A stretch of DNA of 22,224 bases, taken from the IMG/VR virus record IMGVR_UViG_3300032677_001195, positions 1 to 22,224 of that record; one strand, 5' to 3'. Shown one piece after another: positions 2,291-16,130 of this stretch. This DNA comes from a virus. The notes beneath the pieces are model-generated. The model ran no database searches. It was given only the letters and a program-made list of their open reading frames with translations, and was not told where the DNA came from. Position 1 is the stretch's first letter, and every line of letters begins with the position of its first letter. Made by a program: the position numbers and the translations under genes.

Positions 2291-2802
2291 CCTATAAAGA
2301 GCAGATTACTAGCTCAAATACTGAGCTTGCAAAAGATCCTAAAACACGGTTCATAGGCTATGGTCTGCAAAAAGGTCGTGCATTAGGCACTTTAAAAAAC
2401 GTGTCAGACAATCAAATCTTAGAAATGCCTGTTGCAGAAAATTTGATGATGGGGGTTGCCATCGGAATGGCTCTAACAGGGTTAAAACCCGTTGTTTTTA
2501 TTGAAAGAATGGACTTTTTGATGAACGCAATGGATGCTTTAGTGAACCATTTGGACAAAATCAAAGAAATCAGCAAAGGTGAATTTGATCCTAAAGTCAT
2601 CATTCGTTGCATTGTAGGAAACATTACAAAACCGCTATATACAGGCGCTACACACGTTCAAGACTTCACTAGCGCACTTAGAGAAATGACCGATATACCT
2701 GTTTATAGCGTGTTAAATGAGGATTTTGCCAAAACAGCGTATGAGCTGGCAATGACAAGAAACAAATCTTGCATTATTGTTGAATACAAGGATTTAATGT
2801 GA
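2287..2802 (+). CDS. Minimal ThDP pyrimidine-domain subunit, E1-beta/transketolase-like
   Basis: A 171-aa protein matching only the pyrimidine-binding domain of E1-beta and transketolase. The segment EMPVAENLMMGVAIGMALTG (residues 46-65) carries the Glu (E51) that activates the ThDP aminopyrimidine in this superfamily. KPVVFIERMDFL, the THVQDF motif (residues 122-127) and the final CIIVEYKDLM follow the E1-beta order. Normal E1-beta is about 325 aa and continues into a transketolase C-terminal domain; this protein ends where the first domain ends. Together with the alpha-like protein it would give a small two-subunit ThDP enzyme, similar in layout to two-subunit decarboxylases such as sulfopyruvate decarboxylase. 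The start is ATG 2287, overlapping the previous stop, with AGGAAAA upstream. The stop overlaps the radical SAM start (GTGA). Confidence 0.85.
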   Translation: MTYKEQITSSNTELAKDPKTRFIGYGLQKGRALGTLKNVSDNQILEMPVAENLMMGVAIGMALTGLKPVVFIERMDFLMNAMDALVNHLDKIKEISKGEFDPKVIIRCIVGNITKPLYTGATHVQDFTSALREMTDIPVYSVLNEDFAKTAYELAMTRNKSCIIVEYKDLM

Positions 2803-3893
2803 AAAGTAACAAATACAGCAATTTTAAAATATTCCATTTTCCAGAAAAACTGAAATCTTTTGAGGCGGGGGAGGTTTTAGCACCGCTATATGTGCGTATA
2901 AAGCCAATCAACATTTGTAATCACGGATGCTTCTTTTGCGTGTATAGCACTGGTTTTAGGGTGAAAGACGGGGGAGAAGAAGAACACATCATTAGCGGTA
3001 TGCACGAAGATATGAAAGAAGATGATGTCATTCCTACCGAAAAGATGATGGAAATTTTGTATGACTTGCACTATATGGGTACTAAGGCAGTCACTTATTC
3101 TGGTGGGGGAGAGCCTTTAATGCATCCAGACATAGTGCCTATCATGCGTAAGACACTAGAGCTAGGTCTTGATCTATCTATAATTACAAACGGTCAAAAC
3201 TTGGCAAAGGAACGTGCGGAGGTATTGGCAAAAGCTAAGTGGGTAAGGGTCAGCATGGACTACACAAGCGGTGAAGAAATGAAGCGTTTTAGGAACGTGC
3301 CTGAAAAGAGTTTTGATTCTGTGTTGAAAAACATCAAGAATTTTGCTGCCATAAAAGATAAAAGTTGTAATCTAGGTGTTAATTATATTGTGCACCGCAA
3401 CAATTACAAAAATTTATGGGGGTTTAGTCAATTATTAAAAGAGGTAGGGGTTGAGAATGTGCGTTATAGCCCGATGTACGTGCCTGATTTTTATGATTAC
3501 CACAAGGAAATAGCGGATGAAGTCAATGAGCAGCTTGCAAAGATTCAAACTATTACTTCTGAAAACTTTAGTGTCAATAGCACTTACAACATTACTCCTG
3601 GCAGCAGTCACTCTAGTGTACGAAGCTATAAGAGATGTTACATCATGCAAACCGTGCCAGTCATCGGGGCGGATCTCAACGTGTATGCGTGTCATAACAA
3701 AGCCTACGATAAGACTGGTTGCATAGGATCTATTAAGGAAAAACGGTTTCCTACGCTATGGTTTAGTAATGAAACCAAAGAATACTTTGAGAAGTTCAAT
3801 GCTAAAACCACTTGTATGCACGAATGTTCTAACGATACAAAGAATATATTGATTAACGATTATGTAAACGCTAGTACCGACAACTTTATCTAA
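2799..3893 (+). CDS. Radical SAM enzyme with SPASM-like C-terminal cysteine cluster
   Basis: A 364-aa protein with a canonical radical SAM motif CNHGCFFC (Cys40, Cys44, Cys47; CX3CX2C) that holds a 4Fe-4S cluster for S-adenosylmethionine cleavage. SGGGEPL (101-107) is the SAM-binding GGE segment and LSIITNGQ matches the TNG strand. A C-terminal set of cysteines (280, 298, 308, 339, 343) lies in YKRC, VYACHN, GCIG and TTCMHEC contexts typical of SPASM or Twitch auxiliary cluster domains. Such domains occur in peptide-modifying and carbohydrate or cofactor-modifying enzymes. The start is GTG 2799 with AAGGA at 2788-2792; the next in-frame ATG (codon 68) would remove the Cys motif. It is coupled to the ThDP gene upstream and followed closely by a glycosyltransferase. 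The substrate is unknown. Confidence 0.9.
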   Translation: MKSNKYSNFKIFHFPEKLKSFEAGEVLAPLYVRIKPINICNHGCFFCVYSTGFRVKDGGEEEHIISGMHEDMKEDDVIPTEKMMEILYDLHYMGTKAVTYSGGGEPLMHPDIVPIMRKTLELGLDLSIITNGQNLAKERAEVLAKAKWVRVSMDYTSGEEMKRFRNVPEKSFDSVLKNIKNFAAIKDKSCNLGVNYIVHRNNYKNLWGFSQLLKEVGVENVRYSPMYVPDFYDYHKEIADEVNEQLAKIQTITSENFSVNSTYNITPGSSHSSVRSYKRCYIMQTVPVIGADLNVYACHNKAYDKTGCIGSIKEKRFPTLWFSNETKEYFEKFNAKTTCMHECSNDTKNILINDYVNASTDNFI

Positions 3894-3901
3894 GGAAAAT
3901 C

Positions 3902-4699
3902 ATGTCAAAAAAGAAAAAACTTGATGTAAAACAATTTCAAGAGCCATTAAAACGAGTGCCACCCAATGTATTTGTGGCTACTCCGATGTATGGCGGTATG
4001 TGCGCTGGTTTTTATACTCAATCAATCCTTCAATTGACTAAAGTGTGTGCAGATCATGGTGTTCAACTGTCATTTAGCTTTATGTTTAATGAGAGCTTGA
4101 TTACCCGTGCTAGAAATTCATTGGCTCAAACATTTTTGAAAACTGAGTGTACTCATTTAATGTTTATTGACTCAGATATTTTGTTTGATCCTAGAGATAT
4201 TGTTACCATGCTTCAAGCTGACAAAGACATCATTTGCGGTATTTATCCTAAGAAAGAAATCAATTGGAATAGTGTTAGACAGGCTATGGACAATGGTGTG
4301 GCTAACGATCAGCTTAAATTCCATACAGGCAGCTTTGTGGTTAACCTAGTGGACTACGCTGGAGAAGTAACTGTGCCTATTGACCAGCCAGTAGAGATTT
4401 TCAATGGTGGCACTGGCTTTATGATGATTAAACGTGAAGTTTTTGACGAGTTAAGACCACACGTACCAAGCTATTCTAATGATGTAATGGATTTGAATGG
4501 CAGCATGAAGCAAGGTGAACCTATTTCTGAATATTTTGCTACCTCAATTGAACCTGAAACCAATCGTTTGTTGTCTGAGGACTATCACTTTTGCCGAGAA
4601 TGGCGTTTAATCGGTGGCAAAGTGTTTGCTGCACCTTGGGTACGATTGGCACACGTAGGATCGTATGCCTTTGAAGGTCAACTAATTGCTACCGAGTAA
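3902..4699 (+). CDS. GT-A fold glycosyltransferase
   Basis: A 265-aa protein with the layout of a GT-A nucleotide-sugar glycosyltransferase. The N-terminal NVFVATPMYGG strand begins the nucleotide-binding fold. THLMFIDSDILF carries the DxD metal-binding motif (Asp90-Ser-Asp92). The segment FNGGTGFMMIKREVF and LSEDYHFCREW (about 224-234, with the acidic pair expected near the catalytic base) complete the core. There is no transmembrane helix, so it probably acts in the cytoplasm. AAGGAAAATC precedes ATG 3902. Similar proteins are frequent in aquatic phages, where donor and acceptor are mostly unknown. It may glycosylate a virion protein, DNA or a host glycan. It is the last plus-strand gene and its end overlaps the convergent spanin gene by 11 bp. 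Confidence 0.85.
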   Translation: MSKKKKLDVKQFQEPLKRVPPNVFVATPMYGGMCAGFYTQSILQLTKVCADHGVQLSFSFMFNESLITRARNSLAQTFLKTECTHLMFIDSDILFDPRDIVTMLQADKDIICGIYPKKEINWNSVRQAMDNGVANDQLKFHTGSFVVNLVDYAGEVTVPIDQPVEIFNGGTGFMMIKREVFDELRPHVPSYSNDVMDLNGSMKQGEPISEYFATSIEPETNRLLSEDYHFCREWRLIGGKVFAAPWVRLAHVGSYAFEGQLIATE

Positions 4700-5105
4700 T
4701 TGAATTGTATTGTTTGTAACAAGCATCCAGGGCAGTCCTTATTTCGTCTGCTCTGGTAGCTTCCCTGATAAGAAATTCTGCATCCTCGGCAGAAAGGGAT
4801 CTCCCAGTGCCGTCTTGTCCAATGTTGGTGCTGTATTGACTACGACTGGGTCTTGAGCGCAGCTTGATAAGAGCATTAGCAAGCTGATCGTTAATAGCAT
4901 TGATTTGAGCATCTTTATCTTTCCTTATTTGATCGGCAGCAGCCTGGTTTGCAGCCTCTTTCTGTTGGATGACTCTCTCCTGAGCAATTTTCTCGTTTGC
5001 AATTTTCTTCTCGTATCGCCAGCCGTTGATGCTCCAGCCAGCAATGAAAATCAAACTGGTAGCAATCAAGTAAGCAATCAATTTGAACTGGATTGAGCCG
5101 AACAC
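4689..5105 (-). CDS. Rz: Rz-like inner-membrane spanin (i-spanin)
   Basis: A 138-aa protein with one N-terminal membrane helix (residues about 7-24, FKLIAYLIATSLIFIAGW). A long charged, Ala- and Gln-rich coiled coil follows (KKIANEKIAQERVIQQKEAANQ onward). This is the layout of lambda Rz, which spans the periplasm and, with the o-spanin, fuses inner and outer membranes in the last step of lysis. The length is normal for Rz (about 150 aa). It starts inside the end of the endolysin gene (28-bp overlap). A nested o-spanin frame lies within it, which strongly supports the call. Its last 11 bp overlap the convergent glycosyltransferase gene. Confidence 0.88.
   Translation of the reverse strand: MFGSIQFKLIAYLIATSLIFIAGWSINGWRYEKKIANEKIAQERVIQQKEAANQAAADQIRKDKDAQINAINDQLANALIKLRSRPSRSQYSTNIGQDGTGRSLSAEDAEFLIREATRADEIRTALDACYKQYNSITR
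4739..4912 (-). CDS. Rz1: Rz1-like outer-membrane lipoprotein spanin (o-spanin), nested in Rz
   Basis: A 57-aa frame entirely inside the i-spanin gene in the +1 register. It begins MLKSMLLTISLLMLLSSC: a basic start, a hydrophobic core and a lipobox LSSC with the lipidated Cys at residue 18. The mature part is about 40 residues and contains several prolines (DPVV, AP, DPFLP, LPEQ), as expected for Rz1. An AAGGAAAG ribosome-binding site lies just upstream of ATG 4912. The fully embedded arrangement is the classical lambda Rz/Rz1 layout. The lipoprotein would sit in the inner leaflet of the outer membrane and bind the i-spanin across the periplasm. A second ATG at codon 5 could also serve as start. 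Confidence 0.88.
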   Translation of the reverse strand: MLKSMLLTISLLMLLSSCAQDPVVVNTAPTLDKTALGDPFLPRMQNFLSGKLPEQTK

Positions 5106-5542
5106 TTTTCATATTCCTCTGTTCTACGTTTCAATAGACCTGGCTCTACTTTACCGCCAGCCGTATCCCACTTTAACAGCTCCTTGCAAGCCCCGCCATA
5201 GTCACCTGAATTAAGTTTTTTATTAAGGGTTGAATGGCAGAAAGCAGACACCCCAACATTATAGGAAAAATCCAAATATGCATCGTATTCTCCTTGTGAG
5301 ATTGGCACATGAATACAGTTAGCCATTTCTTTTGCAGTTTGATCTACTGTATTTTGTAACTTTACTAAAGCCCTTACAGGGTTTGTAGTGTCACCCTTTT
5401 TAGTACCGTCAGCTTGTCCAAAACCAACGGTATAAACGCCTACCACGTCTTGATAAGCGGTACTCTTATAGCCTTCATTGACAGCAATGCCAACAAGCGC
5501 AGCAGCGCTTACAACTAGCGCAGCTACAGGCTTTCTATCCAA
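5078..5542 (-). CDS. SAR-type endolysin, GH24 lysozyme
   Basis: A 154-aa muramidase of the phage lysozyme family (GH24), which cuts the glycan chain of peptidoglycan. The catalytic triad has exact E-8aa-D-5aa-T spacing: Glu23, Asp32 and Thr38 in NEGYKSTAYQDVVGVYTVGFG. FSYNVGVSAFCHSTL and LLKRRTEEYEKC are further family segments. The N-terminus (residues 5-21) is a weakly hydrophobic Ala/Val/Gly-rich helix right before the catalytic Glu, as in signal-anchor-release endolysins such as P21 R and P1 Lyz. It would therefore be exported tethered and inactive, then released when a holin collapses the membrane potential. Cys56-region residues could add redox control, but this is not clear. It starts directly after the proline-rich protein ends and overlaps Rz by 28 bp. 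Confidence 0.93.
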   Translation of the reverse strand: MDRKPVAALVVSAAALVGIAVNEGYKSTAYQDVVGVYTVGFGQADGTKKGDTTNPVRALVKLQNTVDQTAKEMANCIHVPISQGEYDAYLDFSYNVGVSAFCHSTLNKKLNSGDYGGACKELLKWDTAGGKVEPGLLKRRTEEYEKCSAQSSSN

Positions 5543-8769: not shown

Positions 8770-8988
8770 CTATTCAGTGTTAAGTTCAGTTTTAGCTTTC
8801 AGCCTGTCCTTAGTGTTAATGACAAGATAACTGAAAATGCTGAAAAAAGCCATCGTTACAAGCCTTTCCCAACGTGGGTCGTACATTGCCCAACACGCCA
8901 GACCAAACGACAGACCGAGTGACAATATCACCAGCAAACGGTCTGAGATGATTTCTAACGCTAGGCGAACAAGTGCTACAGCTTCCAT
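8770..8988 (-). CDS. Two-TM small membrane protein, holin candidate
   Basis: A 72-aa protein with two hydrophobic segments, about residues 18-35 (LLVILSLGLSFGLACWAM) and 43-58 (LVTMAFFSIFSYLVI), a short PRWER turn and a charged C-terminal tail (KDRLKAKTELNTE). Size and topology fit a class II or pinholin-type holin. Such proteins control lysis timing and would release the SAR endolysin encoded downstream. It is separated from the endolysin by the structural gene and three tiny genes, so the holin call rests on topology. A strong AAGGGGAT ribosome-binding site lies at 8994-9001. Confidence 0.65.
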   Translation of the reverse strand: MEAVALVRLALEIISDRLLVILSLGLSFGLACWAMYDPRWERLVTMAFFSIFSYLVINTKDRLKAKTELNTE

Positions 8989-13388: not shown

Positions 13389-15512
13389 TTATATTCCTAA
13401 CGCATTTTTAAGTGATTCGGTATTCCAAACATTTTTACGAGCTTCATCCGTACCGAGCAAATAAGGTTCTGAGGTAGTTGATACGTCAGGTCTTGAGCTT
13501 AACGCACTTCCCAATAAAGCGCTAGATAGCGGGTCTGTAGAGATAAAAAAACCATTTAAAGCTGTTGTTGCAGGTGGCGCTGTTGGCGAAGTAGGCGCAT
13601 TTGTCGTTGCAGGTGGCAAAATTGTAGTTGTATCCGCAGTGGTTGTATCCGCAGTGGTTGTATCCGCAGTGGTTGTATCTGCGGGTGGCGCTGTCGTTGT
13701 GGCTGTTGGTGACGAAGTTGTATCTGCGGGTGGCGCTGTCGTTGTAGTTGTATCGGCAGTTGTTGCAGGGGGTGGCGCTGTCGTTGTAGTTGTATCGGCA
13801 GTTGTTGCAGGGGGTGGCGCTGTCGTTGTAGTTGTATCGGCAGTTGTTGCAGGGGGTGGCGCTGTGGTATCAGTGGTTGTAGCAGGTGTCGTAGTCGTAG
13901 CTGTGGTATCAGTTGTGGTCACTGGAGGTGCAGTTGTAGTATCGGTTGCAGTAGTAGTTGGAGTTGTCGTATCCGTAGCAGCCGCAGTTCCGCCAGTTCC
14001 GCTACTTGTTGCTGTGGTGTCTGCTGTGGTTGTTGATGTTTGTGTTTGCGCCTGTGTTTGAACAGCTTTATCCGCTGCTTCTTTTGCCATTGCATCAGCT
14101 ACGGCTTGGTCTTGCGCTGCTTTAGCTGCTGCTGCGTCTGCTGCTGCTTTTGCTTGTGCATCTTGTGCAGCTTGTGCGTCTGCCTGTGCCTGTGCTGCTG
14201 CTTGAGCGTCAGCTTGCGCTTGCGCTTGAGCTTGGGCTGCAACTTGAGCTGCCATTTGATCTTGAATAATTTTTTCTTGTGCCGCTTGAGCATCGGCTGC
14301 CGCTTGATCCGCTGCTGCTTTGTCCGCTGCTGCTTGAGCTGCCGCTTGATCTGCTAAAGCCTTGGCTTGAGCGTCAGCTTGCGCTTGCGCTTGTGCTTGC
14401 GCTTGTGCTGCTGCTGCGGCGTCTGCTGCTGCTTTTGCTTGTGCATCTTGTGCAGCTTGTGCGTCTGCCTGTGCCTGTGCTGCTGCTTGAGCGTCAGCTT
14501 GCGCTTGAGCCGCCGCTTGAGCCTGAGCTTGCGCTTGTGCTTGAGCATCGGCTGCTGCTTGGGCTGCCGCATCTGCTTGAGCCTTGGCTTGGGCATCCGC
14601 TGTTGCTTGGGCTTGCGCCTGTGCTTGAGCCGCCGCTTGAGCCTGAGCTTGCGCTTGTGCTTGTGCATCGGCTGCTGCTTTTGCTTGTGCGTCTGCTTGC
14701 GCTTGTGCCGCCGCTGCTGCGTCTGCCGCTGCTTTATCTGCTGCTGCCTTATCTGCCGCCGCCTGAGCATCGGCTGCCGCCTTAGCTTGAGCAGCTTGTT
14801 GCGCTGCGGTAATGTCACCGTTAGCGGTGGCTACTGCACCTTGGTAATTGGTGTAATTAGCGTTATAAGTGCTAATAGCGGATTGCAATGCAGCAGAATT
14901 AGATTGATAGGTAGATAAACTGTTGTTGTAATTAGTCTTTGCTGCCGCCGCTGCATTTTGATCGGCAGTATATTGATTTACTAAGGAACTTGTGTGACTT
15001 AAAGCGGCATTCCAACTTGCTCCCCAAAAATTAGCTGGAGAATACCCTCTAGATTGAGCCAAAGACATCATTTGACCAATTGTTAATGGGGAATTATTGT
15101 ATCTGACTCCACTTTGAGTATTTAGCCACTGATTGTAAGTGTTTGCGTAGTTTGCTTCGGCAGTGTTGTAAGCCTGTGCATATTGATTAACTTGAGATTG
15201 TTCAGAAGTTAATTGTTGTACTTGTGTCTGAATTTGAGTTTGTTGTTGCAATAATGCATTTGACATATTCTGGATCTGAGCGCTTAGATCCTGAGGCAAT
15301 ATGCTTTGAAAATTAGGTATTTCTGATTGAACAGCTTGAATTTGCGGATCTTGGGAAGTAAACTCTTGAGCAACTGGAGCAGCTACAGTAGATGCAATAT
15401 CAGAAGAAATCGGAGCAACAGTAGATGGGCTTGCATTTTGCAATCCCAATTGTTCATTTGATATTCCCTGTACGGTGACCGAGCCACCACCAGAGTCTAA
15501 TTCATCATCCAT
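13389..15512 (-). CDS. Repeat-rich structural protein: coiled-coil, Ala/Gln rod and Thr/Pro segment
   Basis: A 707-aa protein of very unusual composition. Residues 1-235 are Gln/Asn/Ser/Ala-rich, with heptad-like stretches and one ordered part ([26 protein letters not shown]). Residues about 235-490 are an almost pure A/Q/D/K repeat ([17 protein letters not shown]), probably a long single helix or coiled-coil rod. Residues about 490-645 are Thr/Ala/Pro/Asp repeats ([13 protein letters not shown] units), extended and mucin-like. The C-terminal 60 residues are ordered, ending [21 protein letters not shown] 15512 has an AGGTGAGAA ribosome-binding site. It probably forms a fibrous or internal virion part. 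The DNA repeats make length variation between relatives likely. Confidence 0.7.
13631..13675. repeat. 15-bp tandem repeat, 3 copies
   Basis: The unit TATCCGCAGTGGTTG occurs three times in a row without change, then decays. On the coding strand it adds the five-residue unit TTTAD near the end of the Thr/Pro segment of the 707-aa protein. The copies are identical, which suggests recent slippage. Confidence 0.9.
13729..13854. repeat. 42-bp tandem repeat, 3 perfect copies
   Basis: A 42-bp unit starting GGTGGCGCTGTCGTTGTAG is repeated exactly at 13729-13770, 13771-13812 and 13813-13854, with decayed partial copies on both sides (from 13684 and from 13855). It encodes a 14-residue Thr/Ala/Pro/Asp unit. 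The identity between copies suggests recent duplication by slippage or unequal recombination. Confidence 0.92.
14134..14507. repeat. 89-bp direct repeat (14134-14222 and 14419-14507) in the Ala/Gln rod
   Basis: Two 89-bp copies, read as identical, lie 285 bp (95 codons) apart within the Ala/Gln-rich part of the 707-aa gene. A shorter repeated block starting GCTTGAGCCGCCGCTTGAGC occurs at about 14505-14545 and 14625-14665. All spacings keep the reading frame, pointing to internal duplication under selection for an open frame. Confidence 0.8.
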
Positions 15513-15567: not shown

Positions 15568-15909
15568 TTAATAAAGCCCCAAAGCTGAAGCGATTTGTTC
15601 ATGAATGGTGTAATGAGTGCCTAGCCAGTCATAAAAATCATTTTCTTTATTAAAATCTACATCAAGCATATTAAATGGATTACTTAATCCAAGGATGTCT
15701 GCAAGCGCTTGATGCTCTACTTGGTGAGCCAATAACCAGTCATCTAGGTTGTCAATATTGGCATCTGTAATAGGGAATTTTGAGTAAGTTTGACCAGCAT
15801 CGGTCAATGTTTCCCAAAATAACAGGTGTTGAGTGCCATTTTCAAACAAAAACTCTCCCAGGGAATCTTTATCCCCAAACTTCACGATTGAAAGAGTGTC
15901 CATGTTCAC
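15568..15909 (-). CDS. Small acidic phage protein, unknown function
   Basis: A protein of 111-113 aa. It can start at GTG 15909, overlapping the upstream TGA (GTGA), or at ATG 15903, three codons in; neither has a clear Shine-Dalgarno sequence. It is acidic, with two similar halves visible by eye: ITDANIDNLDDWLLAHQVEHQALADILGLSNPF and DVDFNKENDFYDWLGTHYTIHEQIASALGLY. Both follow a D/E-rich start, a DWL motif, a short His segment and an (A)xLGL end, so the protein may be an internal duplication of about 35 residues. No family name is recalled. It lies in the virion gene operon. Confidence 0.72.
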   Translation of the reverse strand: MNMDTLSIVKFGDKDSLGEFLFENGTQHLLFWETLTDAGQTYSKFPITDANIDNLDDWLLAHQVEHQALADILGLSNPFNMLDVDFNKENDFYDWLGTHYTIHEQIASALGLY

Positions 15910-16130
15910 GATTTGTCAGCTTTCATATCAATCTTGTCCAAAATACGGGCAAGAGTGCCTTTGATCTCCGCAATATCAATGCGGTAATCATCTTTCATGA
16001 CATAACCACGTTCAATCTCTTTAACATCCTCTTTAAGATCACGAATTGCATCCCAAAGGACTTTAAAAAGCCATCCAGCAATAGTTCCGACAATCGTTGA
16101 GGAAATGTTAAAGAGTAATTGAAAGTCCAT
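15906..16130 (-). CDS. Membrane-anchored coiled-coil protein (holin-like candidate)
   Basis: A 74-aa protein with an N-terminal hydrophobic helix (residues 4-26, including ISSTIVGTIAGWLFKVLW). A charged heptad region follows (DAIRDLKEDVKEIERG), then YVMKDDYRIDIAEIKGTL and a basic ADKS end. This YV-KDDY-DI-EIK pattern is shared by small membrane proteins in many podoviruses, where some are annotated as holins. With one membrane helix it could instead be a virion or lysis accessory protein. The frame is firmly placed, overlapping the next gene by a few bases. Confidence 0.7.
   Translation of the reverse strand: MDFQLLFNISSTIVGTIAGWLFKVLWDAIRDLKEDVKEIERGYVMKDDYRIDIAEIKGTLARILDKIDMKADKS

Follow-up and report, generated by a model that had tools for sequence, protein, structure and literature searches.

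A 57-codon open reading frame nested inside an Rz-like gene raises the question of whether this viral DNA carries both members of a spanin pair, or one spanin gene with a fortuitous second reading in it. The stretch analysed (the window) is 22,224 nucleotides long. The first-pass annotation had described a 57-aa frame with a signal peptide, an LSSC lipobox and a Pro-containing mature part, placed fully within Rz in the +1 register and preceded by its own ribosome-binding site. These elements are exactly where they had been put: the open reading frame list of the window has a 57-codon frame that starts with ATG at 4912 and runs to 4739 on the minus strand, a strand assignment that we add, while the plus-strand reading of the same stretch from 4739 is interrupted by stops. 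The frame (4739..4912) lies wholly within the i-spanin frame running from 5105 to 4689, read in the +1 register from a start offset by 193 bases, and takes up the portion from 0.46 to 0.88 of that gene; an o-spanin gene wholly inside an i-spanin gene in another register is what defines the embedded class. By motif and hydropathy, the first 17 residues of the product resemble a lipoprotein signal peptide and lead into an LSSC lipobox whose Cys, the only one in the protein, stands at position 18, giving the lipoprotein signal with a lipobox Cys that is looked for in an o-spanin. The mature part would be 40 aa long with 5 scattered Pro and no Pro run. The putative ribosome-binding site region (4913..4933, minus strand), which also encodes i-spanin, has AAGGA 9 bases before the ATG.

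The enclosing gene (4689..5105, minus strand) encodes 138 aa from a GTG start and was assigned as an Rz-type i-spanin from PHROG matches, hydropathy and an AlphaFold2 model. Its relatedness to known spanin families comes from two PHROG matches, both to Rz-like spanins: phrog_2466 (E 1.3e-9, best stretch residues 6-74 of 138) and, second, phrog_1327 (E 7.9e-7, residues 8-135). Pfam gave sub-threshold matches only (DUF2514, E 0.024). A single N-terminal hydrophobic segment was found at residues 5-23, where hydropathy reaches 1.81 against 0.10 for the next best segment, and the model has helices at 2-83 and 106-137 joined by a poorly predicted linker (mean pLDDT 76.4, pTM 0.31), so that hydropathy and model together give the one N-terminal transmembrane segment and helical periplasmic part predicted for an i-spanin. 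The at least one Cys expected of a two-component spanin is supplied by C129 of the i-spanin, the one Cys of that protein, which lies near the C-terminal end and is invariant in 27 aligned sequences. For the nested product, PHROG matches to Rz-like spanins are weak and confined to residues 1-30 (E about 1e-3), and no Pfam match was found; 10 of 15 aligned o-spanin members match the same spanin PHROG families at E 0.1 or better. Its model, of modest confidence (mean pLDDT 72.5), has a signal helix followed by two short helices at 33-37 and 41-48.

Directly upstream lies a GH24 endolysin gene (5078..5542, minus strand; 154 aa, TTG start as listed), identified by Pfam Phage_lysozyme (E 1.1e-35) and PHROG endolysin (E 5.7e-41), the end of which overlaps the i-spanin start by 28 bases. 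In phage lambda the spanin genes likewise adjoin that of the endolysin. SAR endolysins are recognised by an N-terminal segment, weakly hydrophobic and rich in Ala, Gly and Ser, that precedes the GH24 catalytic residues; here the N-terminus is hydrophobic and Ala/Val-rich, with VAALVVSAAALVGIAV spanning residues 6-21 and a hydropathy of 1.86 over the 19-mer from residue 6, and this may be a SAR endolysin. A possible holin, judged by hydropathy, is the 72-aa product of 8770..8988 (minus strand), located beyond a tail gene, which has one clear and one weaker hydrophobic segment; its only match, at E 0.0042, is to a PHROG family without an assigned function.

On its other side the i-spanin frame meets an oppositely oriented gene (3902-4699, plus strand) that matches phrog_1574, of unknown function, at E 4.3e-51 and glycosyltransferases more weakly; the two frames overlap tail to tail by 11 bases (4689-4699). 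Three further plus-strand frames precede this one. The product of 1389-1985 (198 aa) resembles part of the pyruvate dehydrogenase E1 alpha subunit (NCBIfam E 2.3e-27, far under the cut-off for a model of 315 positions), and that of 2287-2802 (171 aa) part of the E1 beta subunit (E 3e-15, under the cut-off; model of 327 positions), making a thiamine-diphosphate enzyme-like pair in a phage. They are followed on the same strand by a radical SAM/SPASM protein (2799-3893, Pfam E 1e-20). The last two genes of this run, which follow the E1-like pair and converge on the spanin gene, are possibly a sugar or surface-modification cassette. Elsewhere in the window, 13389-15512 (minus strand) is a low-complexity frame of 707 aa that abounds in Ala-Gln and Thr-Pro repeats and for which PHROG gave no match at E 0.01.

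The plainest alternative to a nested gene is that the 57-aa frame is a chance opening in Rz, and that its apparent conservation is a by-product of the conservation of the i-spanin. Its length is readily accounted for in this way. When Rz was resampled synonymously with the codon usage of the window, a +1 open reading frame of at least 57 aa arose in 2383 of 20,000 sequences (12%), and when Rz's own codons were shuffled it did so in 6984 of 20,000 (35%); because such frames are common, the length of the frame alone is no evidence. The signal behaves differently from the length: a +1 frame of at least 50 aa with a lipoprotein-type signal arose by chance once in 20,000 with window codon usage and 3 times in 20,000 with shuffled codons, and even with the bar lowered to 25 aa the count was 23 of 20,000 (window codon usage model only). 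Set against synonymous resamplings of Rz, the frame length is thus unremarkable and the lipoprotein signal is remarkable.

A second line of evidence comes from relatives. These were collected in three scans of viral contigs, which confirmed 100, 387 and 245 candidates and from each of which we took the best 80, many contigs being shared between scans, and in one scan of genome contigs, which gave a single hit. After exclusion of the window's own record and one phage record (L081 and L162), the pooled set held 238 loci with 126 distinct i-spanin segments; in some loci, e.g. L190, the contig ends before the i-spanin start is reached. A small +1 frame with a consensus lipobox is present inside Rz in 123 of the 126 distinct segments, 116 of them found by script and the others by eye (six, L172, L175, L177, L189, L190 and L206, together with L201). 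The first-pass annotation had proposed that conservation of the lipobox and start in Rz homologues be checked, and the same 123 of 126 segments bear out its view of an o-spanin embedded in i-spanin, with lipobox, start and frame all retained. The counter-evidence it had named, a broken lipobox beside an intact Rz, occurs only once (L169, 2667-2837, with SVSC instead of LxSC), too rarely to overturn this reading. Of the other exceptions, L237 (768-1175) keeps the o-spanin frame intact but has Rz interrupted by an in-frame stop, and L202, truncated where its contig ends, was set aside; the L169 lipobox and the L237 stop may be sequencing errors or real decay.

Details of the nested frame are equally constant across the set. 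The lipobox Cys stands at position 18 in all 124 segments in which one was scored by motif, among 125 distinct segments, and the o-spanin start is ATG in all 80 loci of the first scan, in which script-assigned i-spanin starts are ATG in 59, GTG in 14 and TTG in 7, some contigs being cut near the start. An SD-like motif lies 5-16 bases upstream of the o-spanin start in 117 of 119 distinct relatives scored (119 of 126 in an alternative scoring that mis-placed a few starts). The other forward frame across the same interval is open in none of 119 distinct relatives (1 of 125 in another scoring). One antisense frame over this interval is open in 75 of 125, which may be a by-product of codon constraint, and therefore open frames alone prove little. 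The distance from the o-spanin stop to the Rz stop is 8 to 50 bases in relatives other than L201 and L237. A change from embedded to overlapped architecture was looked for and was not found among the 126 distinct segments, since L201 has an intact Rz and L237 an in-frame Rz stop; a published survey reports no such change for any family with embedded members (PMC6139136).

A further observation concerns synonymous change in Rz, measured on the sequences of the first scan that exceed 360 bases, 51 of 53 distinct ones. For pairs of codons with the same amino acid, the fraction that differ is 0.422 before the overlap, 0.169 inside it and 0.433 after it (p about 1e-11 in a Mann-Whitney test on codon columns, which are not independent). 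A third position in Rz is a second position in the small frame, and the drop is therefore what a second translated gene would be expected to leave. Protein identity of the i-spanin is itself raised in the overlap, to 0.71 from the 0.45 found before it, which speaks for a by-product; the o-spanin is conserved to the same degree (0.71). However, conservation of the i-spanin protein does not explain suppression of synonymous change confined exactly to the overlap, which therefore counts against a chance frame, as do the rarity of the signal in resampled genes, the closed alternative forward frame and the lipobox with its Cys at position 18 in 124 of 125 segments. As judged from these alignments, conservation and suppressed synonymous change together make a chance origin of the frame untenable, and we regard that explanation as having a vanishingly small probability.

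A translated lipoprotein might still have some other role, such as that of a Bor-like outer-membrane protein, and merely happen to lie inside Rz. In PHROG, residues 2-30 of the nested product do match a Bor-like outer-membrane protein weakly (E 0.19), but the gene that encloses this product is an Rz-like i-spanin with an endolysin adjacent, and the relative start of the nested frame, 0.46 of Rz, agrees with that of embedded o-spanins as given in the survey (PMC6139136). A two-component i-spanin moreover needs an o-spanin partner, and by a motif and hydropathy rule applied to all six frames the 57-aa frame is the only lipoprotein-like open reading frame of at least 40 aa with a stop in the window, whose 22,224 bases may be a fragment. 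A 74-aa protein (15906-16130) was considered as an alternative lipoprotein from its match to PHROG family 462, 'lipoprotein' (E 3e-8), but it was rejected as its translation has no Cys. We think it very unlikely that the 57-aa product has such a separate role.

The nested frame (4739..4912) is accordingly listed as a putative Rz1-type outer-membrane lipoprotein, and the two genes are almost certainly an embedded two-component spanin. By analogy with lambda, the i-spanin would be anchored in the inner membrane by its N-terminal segment, with its two helices and flexible linker extending into the periplasm, while translation of the o-spanin would begin at a separate start within the i-spanin gene, and the exported product, with a lipid on Cys18, would be held in the outer membrane. 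The C-terminal parts of the two proteins would meet in the periplasm to form the complex, which, after degradation of the peptidoglycan by the adjacent endolysin, may disrupt the outer membrane, probably by fusion with the inner membrane. The association with an endolysin extends to relatives: 208 of the 238 loci, counting repeat contigs, extend over more than 700 bases before Rz, and in 137 of these an endolysin relative is on the same strand, directly upstream of Rz in 65 and downstream in 72, and 71 loci have no match to the window endolysin.

The first-pass annotation had also held that the nested frame confirms a spanin-type lysis pathway and so a Gram-negative host. The spanin reading stands; 'confirms' is too strong for the host, since the pair implies only a host with an outer membrane, and a Gram-negative host is a sound inference from it. 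Searches for the host itself gave little to set beside this. The window as a whole has no near match, the i-spanin matches no isolated phage record at an E limit of 1e-3, and the best isolated-phage match to the o-spanin (E 5) is at chance level. The endolysin matches 2223 phage records, all at less than 60% identity, and these matches are too widespread to name a host. Two structural proteins of the window match two Manatee Spring phages whose records do not state a host, and one of these phages (MW202753) is annotated with a different lysis gene, a peptidase M15. In the scans of viral and genome contigs, close relatives occur only in uncultured viral contigs and in one contig of a metagenome-assembled genome; this contig of 3,250 bases (L082), in a Bacteroidetes assembly, is the sole cellular clue and may be mis-binned. 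A literature search on freshwater embedded Rz1 genes found no report.

The arrangement is real and conserved but ordinary, having long been known from phage lambda, as has its role. Its interest here lies in the support that the pair gives to an outer-membrane host for this phage group, in a clean, well conserved nested gene of a kind that gene callers tend to miss, and in the many relatives, which make a good data set on double-coding constraint. The published survey of 677 phages (Kongari et al. 2018, PMC6139136) counted 528 two-component spanins, of which 182 were embedded, and 196 of the 528 o-spanins, all architectures together, were without any annotation; at least one Cys in either protein was present in 507 of the 528. 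The same survey places embedded o-spanins in both the +1 and -1 registers, gives a start at 0.4-0.5 of the i-spanin and an end at 0.9-1 for about 70% of them, and predicts some to be partly helical (PMC6139136). The window pair agrees in its +1 register, its start at 0.46 and its short predicted helices, and differs in that its o-spanin ends at 0.88, just under the usual range.

Measured against lambda Rz/Rz1 as described in that survey (PMC6139136), the pair has the same plan, with an o-spanin wholly inside the i-spanin in the +1 register and a mature lipoprotein of 40 aa, an i-spanin model that resembles the alpha1-linker-alpha2 organisation of Rz, and a Cys near the i-spanin C-terminus. It differs in the mature o-spanin, which has 5 Pro in 40 aa against 10 in the lambda protein as described there, lacks the penta-proline run, and has instead a conserved C-terminal stretch, PFLPRMQNFLSGKLPEQ. 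Because the penta-proline run is missing, we do not file the window o-spanin in the lambda Rz1 sequence family. It is possible, and we suggest it tentatively from a comparison that covered phage records and PHROGs, that the pair represents a spanin sequence family of its own, so far encountered in this analysis only in uncultured phages, in which a conserved short helix and a C-terminal LGxPFLPRMQNFLSGKLPEQ replace the proline-rich region of the o-spanin. If so, this o-spanin might contact the i-spanin or the outer membrane differently from lambda Rz1.
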